DNA of 44,644 bases from a bacterium (lineage in GTDB: Bacteria; Acidobacteriota; Thermoanaerobaculia; Multivoradales; JAHEKO01). The position numbers and the translations under genes are program-made. Below, one piece after another: positions 40,127 to 44,644 of this stretch (position 1 is its first letter; every line of letters starts with the position of its first letter). The notes beneath the pieces were generated by a model. That model ran no database searches and had not been told where the DNA came from. It saw only the letters and a program-made list of their open reading frames with translations. The DNA lies in assembly GCA_024224155.1 (NCBI GenBank), contig JAAENP010000458.1:1-44644 (forward strand), given 5' to 3'.

Positions 40127-40605
40127 ATCTTGGCCAGGAGCTTCTCCACGATCGCGTCGAAGTCGTTCCAGGCCGCCTGGCGCTCCTCGTCGGTGCCCGC
40201 CTGCCGCATCGCGGCCGAGACTGCGAGTATCTTCTTCTTCGCCTTCCGGGTGACCACTACGAACCCGGTTTCGTACTCGCCGTCCTCGCCGTCGTCGGCA
40301 TTGTGGTGATGGCCGCCCTCGACCAGCTTCTTGCGAATGCCGGCGATCGCGTTATCGCCTTCGGTGGCGAACAGCGCCATCTCGGCCGCGGCCCGCTCGA
40401 ACTCGCCGCGGGCCATCGAGCGCTTGGCGCCGCGATAGTGGTCATCCAGGACCACGCGGACGAAACCGTCCTCAGCCGCCCTCAAAGCGAGAATCGAGTC
40501 GGCCAGCGCGTCGTAGGCTTCGGCCATACTGGTCGGGCTCTTCTGCGCCGCCAGGGGCAGCGCGAACAGCGTCAGGCACATCACAATCAGCAACTTCTTC
40601 GGCAT
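40123..40605 (-). CDS. Exported helical hypothetical protein
   Basis: 160 residues with a signal peptide (about 1-20, LFALPLAAQ). The mature part is almost all helix (MAEAYDALADSILALRAAEDG, RSMARGEFERAAAEMALFA, KKILAVSAAMRQAGTDEERQ) with a His/Asp-rich turn GGHHHNADDGEDGEYE that could bind metal. I do not recognise the family. AAGGAGAT stands before ATG 40603-40605. Its stop overlaps the start of the CRTAC1 gene by four bases, so the two are coupled and probably work together outside the cell. Confidence 0.75.
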   Translation of the reverse strand: MPKKLLIVMCLTLFALPLAAQKSPTSMAEAYDALADSILALRAAEDGFVRVVLDDHYRGAKRSMARGEFERAAAEMALFATEGDNAIAGIRKKLVEGGHHHNADDGEDGEYETGFVVVTRKAKKKILAVSAAMRQAGTDEERQAAWNDFDAIVEKLLAKM

Positions 40606-40696
40606 ATGGATCTCCTTCCCGAGGTCAAGTCAGACCCACAACCTAAAGCAAGGGGGGCGAGTTGGCTCCACCCGAAAAGGTGGCTTTCGGATGCCC

Positions 40697-40874
40697 TTAG
40701 ACAAACAGCTGGACGTCGGCGTCGCCGGCGAAGTCGAGAAAGACCGCCGCCCCGGCGATGTCGCAGCCATCGATCAGATCTTCCTCGGCCACGCCCATGA
40801 CGCCCATTGTGGTTGAGCAGGCGAGGAACTTGCCCCCCAGCTCGCGGGCCATTCTTGCCGTTGCCGTCGCTCAT
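40697..40874 (-). pseudogene. Remnant of a DsrE-family gene with internal deletion
   Basis: An ATG at 40872-40874, overlapping the tusA stop (ATGA), begins MSDGNGKN, a plausible DsrE-family N-terminus. The frame then changes, and from 40852 a second frame gives MARELGGKFLACSTTMGVMG, continuing AEEDLIDGCDIAGAAVFLDF and ending ADVQLFV at the TAA 40697-40699, the C-terminal third of DsrE/DsrF-like proteins that accompany TusA. About 100 residues and one frame are missing between. It may be decay, an assembly error, or a 51-residue product from ATG 40852; there is no ribosome site for the latter. Confidence 0.72.
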
Positions 40875-41155
40875 GGGGTTCTCTCTGGAGCCGCGGCCTT
40901 CCTGAGCCAAAAAGTCTGCTTGCCTTCTCCTTCGAGGGTGCGCAGAAGCTTGTGGCCACTTTGGTTGGCGAGCGCGGGGATGTCGGCGAGCGACCCCGGG
41001 TCGGTGCAGATGAGCTCGAGCACCTCGCCCGGCGAGAGCTTCTTGAGAGCCACCGATGCCTTATAGACCGGAAGCGGGCAGAGCAGGCCCGAGGTGTCCA
41101 GGGTCTCGGAGGCGACGATTTCGGATTCGGTTTCGGCCTTGATTGTCAGTTCCAT
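40871..41155 (-). CDS. TusA-family sulfur carrier protein
   Basis: TusA/SirA-like sulfur-transfer protein of 94 residues. The signature CPLP is at 26-29 (LDTSGLLCPLPVYKA); Cys26 would carry a persulfide. The fold continues ALKKLSPGEVLELICTDPGSLADIPAL, and the C-terminus is extended by about ten residues. An AAGGAAA box precedes ATG 41153-41155. It lies 30 bases after the cysteine synthase-like gene and directly before the DsrE remnant, so it is the middle gene of a sulfur operon under the leader at 42302-42382. Confidence 0.9.
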   Translation of the reverse strand: MELTIKAETESEIVASETLDTSGLLCPLPVYKASVALKKLSPGEVLELICTDPGSLADIPALANQSGHKLLRTLEGEGKQTFWLRKAAAPERTP

Positions 41156-41185
41156 CGGGAGTTTCCTTTCAGTGTCTACTGCTTT

Positions 41186-42208
41186 CTAGAGTTGGGGAGT
41201 GCCTTCGTCGCCCAGCAGCTCGCCGAAGTAGCTCAGGTACTTGAGGCCGCTGTCGGGAGAGACCCCGACGGTCAAGCCGTCGATCTCGCCCTCGAGCCGG
41301 GTGGCGGCTTCGACGACCGCACCGGTCGAAGGCCCGACGATCAGACCTTCCTCCCGGAACAGGCGCTTGGTCATCTCGTAGGCCGGTTCGTCGTCGATCG
41401 GGATGACCCGGTCGATCACGTCCCAGTCCAGGATCTCGGGCTGCTTGGCCTCTTTGAAGTTCTTGAGTCCCGGCAGGCGGTGCCCCTTCTGGGGCTCTAC
41501 CGCGATGATCCGGATCTCGGGATTCTGTTCTTTCAGGAACCTGCCGACCCCAGTCAAGGTGCCGCAGGTCCCGAAGCCGGCGACGAAAGCTCGCACGCGG
41601 CCTTCGGTCTGATGCCAGATCTCGGGGCCGGTAGTTTCGTAGTGGGCCCGGACGTTGTCCGGGTTCTCGTACTGGTTGGGCATTACGTAACGCTCGCCGC
41701 CGGCACTCTCGGCCAGCGAGCGCGCCAGGGCGATCGCGCCGTCCTTGGGGTGATCGACCGGGCACAGATCATCCGGCGTCGGCCAGACCTCGGCGCCGAG
41801 CATCCTCAGCAGCGTCTTTTTCTCTTCCGGCACGCCATCCGGAATCGTGATCGTGAGCTTGCGGTCGTCGAGCGCGGCCAGCGCCGCGAGCGCGATCCCG
41901 GTGTTGCCCGAGGACGGTTCGACCAGTTCCTTGCCGTCGAGCCGGCCGGCTTCCTCGAGTCCGCGCAGGAGAAACGCCGCCGTCCGGTCCTTGATCGAGC
42001 CGAACGGGTTGAGCCACTCGAGCTTGAGGTAGAGCGGCGCGCTGTCTTCGGGCAGGACCCGCCGGATTCGCACCAGGGGCGTCGGGTTCTCGACACTGGG
42101 CAGCAGCTGCCGAATGTCCTCGTAGCGCCGCCGGGTGTCGTCCTGGCTCAGCTCTTCGGCTTGCCCCTCGGCCTGCCAATCTTCGATTCTTGCGATTTCT
42201 GGTTCCAT
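41186..42208 (-). CDS. Cysteine synthase/cystathionine beta-synthase family enzyme
   Basis: Fold-type II PLP enzyme of 340 residues that makes cysteine by sulfhydrylation of an activated serine. Landmarks: NPTPLVRIRR, the Schiff-base Lys73 in NPFGSIKDR, EPSSGNTGIALA binding the substrate carboxylate, FGTCGTLTGVGRF for the PLP phosphate, EPQKGHRLPGL and VSPDSGLKYLS. An N-terminal extension of about 40 residues and lack of CBS domains leave the donor open (O-acetylserine, O-phosphoserine or homocysteine-linked). The ATG at 42206-42208 is preceded by AGAGGA and lies 25 bases after a strong terminator, itself after a Cys-codon leader: expression should depend on charged tRNA-Cys. First structural gene of the operon with tusA. 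Confidence 0.88.
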   Translation of the reverse strand: MEPEIARIEDWQAEGQAEELSQDDTRRRYEDIRQLLPSVENPTPLVRIRRVLPEDSAPLYLKLEWLNPFGSIKDRTAAFLLRGLEEAGRLDGKELVEPSSGNTGIALAALAALDDRKLTITIPDGVPEEKKTLLRMLGAEVWPTPDDLCPVDHPKDGAIALARSLAESAGGERYVMPNQYENPDNVRAHYETTGPEIWHQTEGRVRAFVAGFGTCGTLTGVGRFLKEQNPEIRIIAVEPQKGHRLPGLKNFKEAKQPEILDWDVIDRVIPIDDEPAYEMTKRLFREEGLIVGPSTGAVVEAATRLEGEIDGLTVGVSPDSGLKYLSYFGELLGDEGTPQL

Positions 42209-42233
42209 GTCGGTCGATTCCTCTCAGAAAAAG

Positions 42234-42272
42234 AAAAAGACCCGCGCCGGGTGTGCCGGTGCGGGTCTTTTT
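42234..42272 (-). terminator. Intrinsic terminator (attenuator) in the cysteine leader
   Basis: On the minus strand AAAAAGACCCGC (42272-42261) pairs perfectly with GCGGGTCTTTTT (42245-42234), extended after one A-C mismatch by CCGG/CCGG around a CACAC loop. CTTTTT follows. It lies 29 bases after the leader-peptide stop and 25 bases before the cysteine synthase start, so unless prevented it would end transcription ahead of the operon. Its 5' arm is also complementary to 42316-42327. Confidence 0.93.
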
Positions 42273-42301
42273 GAGATCTAGCGGTCTGTACTGCCTAACG
42301 G

Positions 42302-42382
42302 CTAATAACGGACCTCCCCACCGGCACGGCTCAGAGCCATACAAGCGCAACAACAACAGCAGGTGTTCTGGGAGGGCGTCAT
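42302..42382 (-). CDS. Cysteine-rich leader peptide, 26 residues
   Basis: Frame of 27 codons, MTPSQNTCCCCCACMALSRA and six more residues (GGEVRY), TAG at 42302-42304. Cys codons stand at positions 8-12 and 14 (TGC TGT TGT TGT TGC GCT TGT). ATG 42380-42382 is ten bases from the -10 box, leaving a 5' end of about two to four bases and no ribosome site, so translation would be leaderless. I read it as a regulatory leader whose ribosome stalls on the Cys run when tRNA-Cys is uncharged. The Cys density is far above chance and the location, before a terminator and a cysteine synthase, supports this. It was too short and nested to stand out as a gene. Confidence 0.85.
   Translation of the reverse strand: MTPSQNTCCCCCACMALSRAGGEVRY
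42316..42327 (-). promoter_or_regulatory. Antiterminator segment inside the leader frame
   Basis: In the minus-strand RNA GTGCCGGTGGGG (codons 19-23 of the leader) can pair with CCCGCACCGGCAC in the 5' arm of the terminator (42253-42265): nine consecutive pairs, one G-G mismatch, two more pairs. The GGGGAGG that ends this segment can also pair with CCTCCC in codons 3-5 (42371-42377). These alternatives match segments 1, 2 and 3 of a trp-type attenuator. Confidence 0.75.
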
Positions 42383-42392
42383 CGGGGGTCTG

Positions 42393-42421
42393 AATCTAAG
42401 ATACGCGGCTCGGTCCGTCAA
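42393..42421 (-). promoter_or_regulatory. Sigma-70-type promoter of the cysteine leader operon
   Basis: Minus strand: -35 TTGACG (42421-42416), a spacer of exactly 17 bases, -10 TAGATT (42398-42393). The expected start point is about 42385-42387, only a few bases before the leader ATG at 42382. Confidence 0.75.
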
Positions 42422-42937
42422 GGTTCTCAAGGTCGGTCGAGCCGCTTGGTGTAGGTAACGGTTGGGCTGGCTGACTAATTCCCGGCGGATTGAAGCCCAA
42501 GGCCGCGGCGTTCCGGGCTTTCAGAACCGGTGCAGCAAGGAATTCCGGATCCGGTAGGAAAAAACAGCCGGTCTTGAGTTGTCGCGGCACAGTGATCGTG
42601 TTGCTTGATACGAGTCCGTCGTTCGCCTTACCAGTCTCTCTGCCAGGAGGTTAGCTTGTGCTGAGCTGCTGTATCCGCGCCGGCTCTGGGACTCACCGGC
42701 ACCGGTTCGTTTGGCTGGCAGATCGCTTGCAGAGAGCGATGCCCGATCGAGTTCTCTGGTTCCCGAAGCTACCTCACAAGAGGATCGTCGACGGGCCCGT
42801 GCGGCCGAGGACGTTTCCGTGAAAGGCCCGGTGAGTGCTCTTGTGCGGTCTCCGTGGGACTTACAGTTTGTTGGGCAAGAGTGAAATCCTTCACAGTCGT
42901 GAGAGTTGAGCCGCCCCTACGCTCCTCCGCAACCCGT
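42422..42937. other. Intergenic region upstream of the multiheme cytochrome
   Basis: About 516 bases without a convincing gene. Short perfect stems occur (ATCGCT/AGCGAT near 42722-42740; GTGAA/TTCAC near 42882-42895) but no known riboswitch consensus; I looked for a c-di-GMP/cGAMP (GEMM) motif, as precedes cytochromes in Geobacter, and did not find it. A 64-codon minus-strand frame (42396-42590) looks spurious. The cytochrome promoter must be here but I cannot place it. Confidence 0.5.
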
Positions 42938-44644
42938 ATGCATAGGAGCGTCTGGTGGGCCTGCATAGTTATTGGCGTATGCGCGGCGATGCTGTGCCTC
43001 GGTGGATCTCAGGTGATCGTTGCGGCCCAGGCAGCAACCGTGAGCCCACACGGTTCGCTCGACACCGAGTGCAGCGAGTGTCACACCGTCGGTGGGTGGA
43101 ATCAGTTGCGCGAGCCGGTTCTCTTCGATCACGCAACGACCGGTTTCCCGCTGCGTTTTGGTCACGCGAAGGCGTCGTGCGTGAGTTGCCACGAGAATCT
43201 CGAATTCAGTTTCGTAGCGACAGCCTGTGCGGACTGTCACGAAGATCCGCACGCCGGGGATCTTGGTTCGAATTGTGAGTCGTGTCATTCGGCGGACAGA
43301 TGGAACAACCGACGACGGATCTTCGATCTTCATAGCGCCACGCTGTTTCCGTTGACCGGGGCCCATGCGATTCCCGACTGTGCCTCGTGCCATCGGGAGG
43401 AACCGCCGTTCGAGTTCGCCGCAACGCCGACGAATTGTTTCGCTTGCCATGCGTCCGACTACCAGAACGCGGCTCGTCCCGATCATGTTCAGCAGCGCTT
43501 TCCGACCCGTTGCGAGGAGTGCCATGCGCCTACTCGATGGCAGGAGTCTTCGTTCCTAGGTGGGGCTGATTTCGACCACGCACTCTTCTTCCCGCTGGTA
43601 GATGCTCATGAGCGTGTTGAATGTGCTTCGTGCCACGTGGGAAAGAGCTTTGCTGGAACTCCCCGCGACTGCTTCTCCTGTCATCGGCAGGCCTTCGAGC
43701 AAGCCACCAATCCGAATCACCGGTCGGCGGGATTCCCGCAAGCCTGCGAGCAGTGCCACGGGATGATGGCATGGGACCCCGCGGACTTCGACCACCATGA
43801 GTTTTTTGAGCTGAAGGGAGCCCACAAAGAGACCACCTGCGACTCCTGCCACACGGGTGGCCCGTATGCCGGAACGTCGACCGACTGCTACTCGTGCCAT
43901 CGGGCGGACTTCGAGGAAACTAAGGATCCCGATCATCAGAACGCGGGGTTCGCCCCGACTTGCGCGAGTTGCCACGACGAGTCGACCTGGCTCGGGGCGT
44001 CGTTTGAGCACGACAGTTTTTTTCGACTCAGCGGAGCCCACAGGAAAGCCGCATGTGGCGGCTGCCACCAGAACGGCGTTTTCGCGGGCACACCAAGGGA
44101 TTGTTTTTCGTGTCACCAGGCCGACTACGATCAAACCACCAACCCGAACCATGCCGCGGTGGGCTTTTCAACCACCTGCCAGAGTTGCCATACACAGAAG
44201 AACTGGGAGGGGGCCGAGTTCGACCACGATCTGGTTTTCAAGCTGACCGGAGCTCACAGGTCAGCGGCGTGCGAGTCGTGTCATCAGGGCGGTGTCTACA
44301 CGGGAACTCCGCGCGACTGCTTCTCGTGCCACCAGTCGGACTACGACGGAACGACGGACCCGAACCATATGGCAGCCGGGTTTCCGACGAGCTGCAAGAC
44401 CTGCCACGGGACCGACCGCTGGAAGGGCGCCGCGTTCGACCACGATCAGCTCTTCCGGCTGACGGGCGCTCACCGCAAGGCGGACTGCGACTCTTGCCAC
44501 CAGAGTGGCGTGTACAAGGGGACACCGCGGGATTGCGTCTCGTGCCACCAATCGGAGTACGACGGGACAGCGGATCCGAACCACGTGGCGGCCGGCTTCC
44601 CGACGAGCTGCGAAACCTGCCACGAGACGGACCGCTGGGAGGGG
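42938..44644 (+). CDS. Multiheme c-type cytochrome, 3' end outside window
   Basis: Open frame of 569 codons running off the end. An N-terminal signal helix (VWWACIVIGVCAAMLCLGG, about 5-23) ends near VAAQAA, so the protein is exported. I count 22 CxxCH heme-binding motifs, the first CSECH near residue 48, the last CETCH just before the edge. The first seven are irregularly spaced; from 43571 they follow a 72-residue module with three motifs each: FDHD-LTGAH-CxSCH, GTPRDCFSCH, then PNH-GFPTSCxTCH-W. High heme density with nothing else suggests long-range electron transfer in the periplasm or outside the cell. Start ATG 42938 has no clear ribosome site. Many plus and minus frames of 60-200 codons here are shadows. 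Confidence 0.93.
   Translation, partial: MHRSVWWACIVIGVCAAMLCLGGSQVIVAAQAATVSPHGSLDTECSECHTVGGWNQLREPVLFDHATTGFPLRFGHAKASCVSCHENLEFSFVATACADCHEDPHAGDLGSNCESCHSADRWNNRRRIFDLHSATLFPLTGAHAIPDCASCHREEPPFEFAATPTNCFACHASDYQNAARPDHVQQRFPTRCEECHAPTRWQESSFLGGADFDHALFFPLVDAHERVECASCHVGKSFAGTPRDCFSCHRQAFEQATNPNHRSAGFPQACEQCHGMMAWDPADFDHHEFFELKGAHKETTCDSCHTGGPYAGTSTDCYSCHRADFEETKDPDHQNAGFAPTCASCHDESTWLGASFEHDSFFRLSGAHRKAACGGCHQNGVFAGTPRDCFSCHQADYDQTTNPNHAAVGFSTTCQSCHTQKNWEGAEFDHDLVFKLTGAHRSAACESCHQGGVYTGTPRDCFSCHQSDYDGTTDPNHMAAGFPTSCKTCHGTDRWKGAAFDHDQLFRLTGAHRKADCDSCHQSGVYKGTPRDCVSCHQSEYDGTADPNHVAAGFPTSCETCHETDRWEG
43571..44644 (+). repeat. 216-bp tandem repeat encoding three-heme modules
   Basis: Units start at 43571, 43787, 44003, 44219 and 44435, always exactly 216 bases apart (72 codons). 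The fifth unit is cut by the window end after 210 bases. Later units are more alike than earlier ones: the units from 44219 and 44435 share long runs such as GGGACxCCGCG-GATTGC-type text and ACCGACCGCTGG, so amplification seems more recent toward the 3' end. Confidence 0.92.

Follow-up and report, generated by a model that had tools for sequence, protein, structure and literature searches.

A predicted cysteine-sensing leader-peptide attenuator precedes cysM-tusA in an Acidobacteriota bacterium and in uncultured Acidimicrobiia

In the attenuators of the trp, his and leu operons, a leader peptide rich in the operon's own amino acid is combined with competing hairpins. Mycobacterial polycysteine short ORFs are reportedly the subject of a 2020 study by Canestrari, whose title calls them leaderless. 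Passages of an earlier survey place cysteine leaders before cys operons of Mycobacterium and Propionibacterium acnes and before cbs of Bifidobacterium longum, and give no conserved terminators for them (PMC1262725). According to sections of two papers, the polycysteine case of M. smegmatis acts on translation (PMC9031893; PMC13236596), and an extract of a third describes conserved Cys-rich regulatory short ORFs in Mtb (PMC9094748). Attenuation has been predicted for uORFC-8-2 of Rhodobacterales, for which excerpts report two tandem Cys codons and an intrinsic terminator before cysS (PMC8632094). In Mtb, a transcription attenuator controls ilvB1, and a ribosome at the stop codon masks one arm, as set out in one section of PMC13236596. 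Almost all attenuators predicted for Acidobacteriota in a 2010 survey were without an associated function, in the words of one of its passages (PMC2965389). The initial annotation of the locus described here had taken Cys attenuators to be known mainly from mycobacteria; mycobacteria do have such leaders, but the excerpts above add P. acnes and B. longum (PMC1262725) and the cysS gene of Rhodobacterales (PMC8632094), so that the restriction was too narrow. In a literature search that covered few subscription papers, a Cys attenuator was found neither for Acidobacteriota nor for Acidimicrobiia, and neither an attenuator of cysM-tusA nor one with a methionine leader came up.

We analyzed a contig of 44,644 nucleotides from an Acidobacteriota genome (JAAENP010000458.1; the whole stretch is hereafter called the window). 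A minus-strand promoter, a 26-residue Cys-containing frame with its stop, a strong intrinsic terminator, and a cysteine synthase-like gene followed by tusA had been annotated, and all of them were recovered (Table 1). The promoter is the sole sigma-70-like site in a scan of 40500-43500 (shuffled mean 0.3). The terminator hairpin lies 29 nt past the leader stop and folds at -26.6 kcal/mol. The next long upstream ORF is divergent (start 42854, plus strand), hence the terminator does not close any upstream gene. This ORF (42854-44644) runs off the window and, by eye, holds many CxxCH motifs, resembling a multihaem cytochrome. The best NCBIfam model for the synthase ORF is TIGR01136 (cysKM; E 1.7e-81, 273.9 bits, under the cut-off of 344), and the tusA-like gene matches its model at E 3.2e-12, also under the cut-off; we assign the synthase to cysM, with subtype and sulfur donor putative. 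An antiterminator pairing, a near-leaderless start and a dsrE2 remnant as third gene go beyond the initial annotation. An Rfam search of 41500-43500 listed 12 matches, none of which reached its gathering score (best E 0.026); neither a T-box nor a SAM riboswitch was among the 12, and we set both aside.

Table 1. Features of the cysM-tusA leader locus in the window (positions in window coordinates)
Feature	Position	Strand	Details
Promoter	42421-42393	-	-35 TTGACG 42421-42416, 17 nt spacer, -10 TAGATT 42398-42393
Leader ORF	42382-42302	-	26 codons, predicted near-leaderless, reads MTPSQNTCCCCCACMALSRAGGEVRY; stop TAG 42304-42302
Cys codon run	42361-42341	-	codons 8-12 and 14: TGC TGT TGT TGT TGC GCT TGT
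Predicted antiterminator 5' arm, inside leader ORF	42327-42311	-	GTGCCGGTGGGGAGGTC
Predicted antiterminator 3' arm (coincides with 5' arm and loop side of the terminator)	42267-42253	-	GACCCGCACCGGCAC
Intrinsic terminator hairpin	42272-42234	-	AAAAAGACCCGC...GCGGGTCTTTTT, T-rich tail to about 42228
cysM, CysK/CysM-family cysteine synthase	42208-41186	-	presumed regulated gene
tusA-like sulfur carrier gene	41155-40871	-	NF001423
dsrE2 remnant, C-terminal third only	40852-40697	-	NCBIfam NF047629 DsrE2, model positions 111-159 of 159

We consider it highly likely that this locus is a ribosome-mediated transcription attenuator that would sense charged tRNA-Cys and control the cysM-tusA operon. 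This reading, already proposed in the initial annotation, draws on layout, conservation, terminator covariation, complementarity and masked-folding geometry; in particular, the layout is conserved, the antiterminator pairing stands out in most loci, and the folding geometry fits stalling at Cys codons.

A run of Cys codons might instead have arisen by chance beside an unrelated terminator. Four TGY codons in a row are not rare in the window's own genome: the pattern of four consecutive Cys codons, which leaves looser clusters outside, matched 28 times, although the same pattern read backwards matched 68 times. Among those 28 matches only that of the window is, by eye, a short ORF followed by a terminator. 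The window leader carries Cys at six of seven codons, and exactly one short ORF (≤60 codons) with at least six Cys in seven codons occurs in the window, whereas none of 150 dinucleotide shuffles of the window gave a short ORF with even five in seven. Given also the retention of the layout in 28 of 51 close loci and in all seven loci found later (see below), a chance origin has a vanishingly small likelihood.

Conservation was assessed by scanning contigs of genomes with the window's cysteine synthase, and the best 80 of 104 confirmed stretches were taken. Fifty-five of these, at ≥57% identity, formed the close set; four had too little upstream DNA (L033, 207 nt; L047, 119 nt; L048, 130 nt; L056, 135 nt), leaving 51 testable. 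In 28 of the 51, a Cys-run leader of 20-28 codons is followed by a hairpin, and 23 have no such leader. A strict short-ORF test detected 28 of 51 on the sense strand; as controls, the opposite strand gave 2 of 51, and downstream regions 1 and 0 of 46. A further locus, L085, passes a loose Cys filter (29 of 51 with L085) and was dropped before counting: its start would be TTG or far upstream, and its hairpin is weak. The 28 leaders hold three to eight Cys codons; 27 start with ATG and one with GTG (L080). Most of these loci come from metagenome-assembled genomes titled Actinomycetota or Acidimicrobiia. Within the window's own lineage, the genus sister (L032, genome G001) keeps the Cys run and the terminator, and a member of the family whose sequence differs greatly (L058, genome G009) has the leader MNAQNNVLSCSCCCPGPNRRLGACN followed by two tandem hairpins. 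The Cys run and terminator of the initial annotation are thus kept both in these relatives and in Actinomycetota-titled loci.

A later search of 395 genomes in the class of an Acidimicrobiia record found a close homologue in 36, giving 30 loci; two (L148, L166) were left out for similarly short upstream DNA, and all of the remaining 28 bear the leader. Seven of these loci were new and serve as a hold-out, with the leader layout in seven of seven, which brings the total to 36 leader loci (the window, the 28 and the seven). A quick tree built from 82 protein rows places the leader-bearing genes in a single clade, whose 31 rows comprise 29 with the leader and two without upstream DNA (SH-aLRT 93), and the leader trait amounts to one change. 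Below the close set, L005 (G035, 54% identity) has a TCACT motif only, and L006/L185 (G039, 49%) has the terminator and the arm on a contig that ends before the leader.

Cys-run short ORFs were also found among 25 more distant cysM homologues, in seven on the sense strand and none on the other strand (downstream, 2 and 1 of 25). These seven loci (L101, L102, L103, L105, L107, L109, L110) belong mostly to Phycisphaerales or relatives. Their ORFs end 80-183 nt before the synthase match, with the Cys run often near the stop, and often no obvious terminator could be seen by eye after them. They are perhaps independent cysteine leaders of the mycobacterial kind.

Upon inspection of the leader starts in the window and the 28 close loci, TANNNT was found 6-10 nt upstream of the chosen start in 29 of 29 (0.214 per position versus 0.002 further up), and 12 of these loci also have TTGAC a further 16-18 nt upstream. 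A Shine-Dalgarno-like motif before the leader was seen in none of the 29. Since the window ATG follows the -10 box by 10 nt and has no Shine-Dalgarno sequence, its leader would be leaderless or nearly so, and very probably the same holds for the other leaders, the transcription starts being predicted from the promoter motifs. Thirteen of the 29 leaders offer a further in-frame start codon, ATG or GTG, ahead of the Cys run, and the start was picked by eye. We also noted, in 12 of 29 loci including the window (42319-42312), a Shine-Dalgarno-like GAGG within the final 12 codons of the leader; it is partly used in the predicted antiterminator and might also slow the ribosome ahead of the stop.

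The hairpin lies 19-35 nt past the leader stop in all 29 loci. A T-tract hairpin was found automatically in 23 of them, whereas in the other six, where the T tract is weak, the hairpin was assigned manually; for L058 and L064 a manual choice replaced the automatic pick. Across the 36 aligned loci the helix of the terminator shows covariation: both sides change in 9 of its 12 pairs, with 25 such cells, and none of 500 shuffles scored as high. These observations bear on an alternative in which the leader acts by translational attenuation, the leader ribosome gating the cysM ribosome-binding site with the hairpin secondary. The window leader shares the polycysteine run and the (near-)leaderless start with the mycobacterial elements, and in the full-length fold of the window the bases of the cysM Shine-Dalgarno sequence are partly paired (unpaired probabilities 0.16-0.80; computed for the window only). 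However, a covarying hairpin follows the leader in every counted leader locus, albeit with a weak T tract in six, and we regard control at the level of translation as very unlikely.

Transcription attenuation by competing structures would require an alternative partner for the terminator stem. The leader 3' part and the terminator 5' side of the window can form a duplex of -26.7 kcal/mol (shuffled mean -17.7, p 0.012), next to -26.6 kcal/mol for the terminator; since the 3' arm overlaps the terminator stem, the two pairings compete. In 22 of 29 loci the equivalent pairing is stronger than in dinucleotide shuffles (p≤0.05), and in seven it gives p>0.05 (L052, p 0.44; L054, p 0.49). Own arms pair better than swapped arms (mean -21.1 versus -18.0; p 5e-5, the minimum for 20,000 permutations), and on fixed columns 79% of positions are paired versus 33-47% when the arms are slid. 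No covariation of the antiterminator was detected in the aligned loci, where 220 of 500 shuffles match the pairing and 271 of 500 the covariation score; the case for the predicted antiterminator is one of complementarity and position. A trp-like 1:2 pause or protector hairpin was not supported as a general feature, with p≤0.05 in 6 of 29 loci and p 0.083 in the window.

We next asked how a ribosome on the leader would affect this choice in folding models. In equilibrium folding of the full window leader, the terminator wins in every ribosome state, hence the choice must be kinetic and made during transcription. A partial-transcript model was adopted only after this full-leader folding had not shown switching: the transcript was cut just past the terminator 5' arm, and a ribosome footprint of 14/11 or 12/10 was masked. 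For the window, the antiterminator probability is 1.00 whichever of its six Cys codons the ribosome occupies. With the ribosome at the stop it falls to 0.05 for the 14/11 footprint, and is 0.76 (7.1/11.5 pairs) for the 12/10 footprint, which would make for a leaky switch. Over the 29 loci, a ribosome in mid-run leaves on average 11.6 antiterminator pairs and one at the last Cys codon 7.4; the mean is 2.3 or 1.65 for a ribosome at the stop codon and 5.3 with no ribosome. Stalling exceeds the stop position by at least two pairs in 27 or 28 of 29 loci, with the poorest separation in L038 and L083. In the window without any ribosome the antiterminator probability is 0.99, so that an untranslated leader should read through, unlike in trp.

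Under the preferred reading, of which transcription start, translation, stalling, readthrough and the response to cysteine are the parts that we infer, a ribosome would start at the 5'-proximal ATG. When Cys-tRNA is ample, the ribosome would reach the stop codon and cover the leader 3' part; the terminator would then fold and transcription end before cysM. When Cys-tRNA is scarce, the ribosome would stall in the Cys run and leave the leader 3' part exposed, so that it could base-pair with the terminator 5' arm once that arm is transcribed. The antiterminator thus formed would let RNA polymerase read on into cysM and tusA.

The genes downstream differ between loci with and without the leader. 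In 26 of 28 leader loci tusA directly follows cysM and in one it is fused to it, hence 27 of 28 in total, whereas tusA is adjacent in none of the 20 close loci that have no leader and whose downstream DNA is long enough (L070, L078 and L085, for which downstream DNA is missing, were left out of the tusA count). The fusion is, by eye, a natural CysM-TusA protein (L058/L004, G009), and the leader locus without an adjacent tusA is L083. In the leader-less L034 a nitrite/sulfite-reductase-like ORF comes next, and likewise by eye in L140 and in L033, one of the four loci with too little upstream DNA. The ORF after tusA is a near full-length DsrE2 in L068 (model positions 4-159) and DsrE2-like by eye in L039, L054, L060 and L075; the window retains the remnant only.

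To look for related leaders, a covariance model built from the 36 leaders was applied to 16 genomes, the majority of them with a locus of the training set. It recovered the cysM site in 14 of 16 genomes (E 8.2e-15 or better). Beyond the training loci, it found the G039 site at the contig end (E 5.1e-8), sites before metY in G436, G437 and G642 (E 1.1e-6 to 5.8e-6) and a site before a trpE-like gene in G439 (E 1.5e-5); in G035 it found terminators only. The metY gene matches TIGR01326 above the cut-off, and the trpE-like gene matches TIGR00564 below it. Of 296 genomes 80 then gave a match, and the best 30 metY loci were taken from these. A leader containing M(M/I)CMA or LMCMA was found in 17 of the 30, with TANNNT 7-10 nt before the start in 17 of 17 and a T-tract hairpin in 15 of 17 (L188, L189, L190, L201-L211, L213-L217 and L222, in the class of G436, with three places doubled). 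These are candidate methionine/cysteine leader-peptide attenuators. Upstream of the trpE-like gene, L192 (G439) has the leader MSQTSTSPTSQWWWPFP, with Trp-Trp-Trp, then a hairpin and a T run, and is predicted to be a Trp attenuator of similar architecture. With Met/Cys codons before metY and Trp codons before the trpE-like gene, codon identity follows the pathway. Methionine is usually sensed by riboswitches or T-boxes, and we know of no methionine-codon ribosomal attenuator elsewhere.

It is possible to imagine that the leader peptide, not its codons, is the sensor, with a Cys-rich nascent chain arresting the ribosome in response to, for example, metal or sulfane sulfur. Neighbouring Cys residues could coordinate a metal or undergo persulfidation, and TusA works on sulfane sulfur. 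However, the Cys patterns are diverse across leaders (CCCCC, CACACAC, CTCTCC and CICSCMC); what is retained is a cluster, with a pairing arm close by. Moreover, Cys codons in the 29 leaders are enriched in TGT (TGT 86 : TGC 58, versus TGT 9 : TGC 41 in their own cysM genes), which fits slow decoding without being proof of it. Lastly, the Met- and Trp-codon versions sit before genes of the Met and Trp pathways. We therefore judge a peptide sensor to be extremely unlikely, and return to sensing of charged tRNA-Cys through the codons.

The leader element looks centred on Acidimicrobiia, with close cysM homologues rare in Acidobacteriota. A close synthase was found in 3 of 18 genomes of the window's family (E≤1e-70) and in 2 of 396 genomes of a sample of the Acidobacteriota phylum (E≤1e-100), one of which, G068, has no leader. 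L055 is titled Acidobacteria and was not counted as Acidobacteriota, since its genome, G439, groups in one class with G435, to which an Acidimicrobiia record belongs. Along the tree path, after the genus sister, the nearest to the window are four loci titled Acidimicrobiia or Acidimicrobiaceae. The operon and its switch were probably gained by horizontal transfer, presumably from an Acidimicrobiia-like source. Contamination of the window's contig is not suggested: in a search of relatives only, a flanking protein matches well in the window's own genus and family. It seems to us rather more plausible than the opposite that the loci represent a near-leaderless attenuator family centred on Acidimicrobiia, in which sensor codons are swapped per operon (Cys for cysM-tusA, Met-Met-Cys-Met for metY, Trp-Trp-Trp for the trpE-like gene) and whose cysM version entered Acidobacteriota as a cassette.

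Collectively, our results add a predicted terminator-based, cysteine-specific leader-peptide attenuator at 36 loci of uncultured Acidimicrobiia and Acidobacteriota. They predict that CysM and TusA, with one natural fusion, form a cysteine-regulated unit, and point to a sulfur-carrier route to cysteine. They also suggest that operon and switch move together from one phylum to another, and the metY relatives suggest that methionine, too, can be sensed by leader peptides.

The mechanism is already known; what is new is the gene pair, the lineages, and a near-leaderless start combined with an intrinsic terminator. With the trp, his and leu attenuators the window shares a leader rich in the operon's amino acid and competing hairpins; it differs from them in sensing, as predicted, cysteine, in its near-leaderless start and in that no general 1:2 hairpin was found. 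The leaders of mycobacteria, P. acnes and B. longum likewise place a Cys-run short ORF before cysteine genes, with slowing of the ribosome at Cys codons, and the mycobacterial elements also share the leaderless start predicted for the window. Unlike the mycobacterial elements, which in the excerpts cited above are without a conserved terminator and, in M. smegmatis, translational, the window has a conserved terminator with a predicted antiterminator, and its genes are cysM-tusA. The uORFC-8-2 element is alike in its predicted ribosome-mediated attenuation, Cys codons and intrinsic terminator, but has two tandem Cys codons, precedes cysS, belongs to another phylum and is described in the excerpts of PMC8632094 with no mention of a leaderless start. 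The ilvB1 attenuator of Mtb, as given in the section of PMC13236596, has branched-chain amino acid codons and operon, and shares with the window the uORF, the terminator, the antiterminator and an arm masked by the ribosome at the stop codon.
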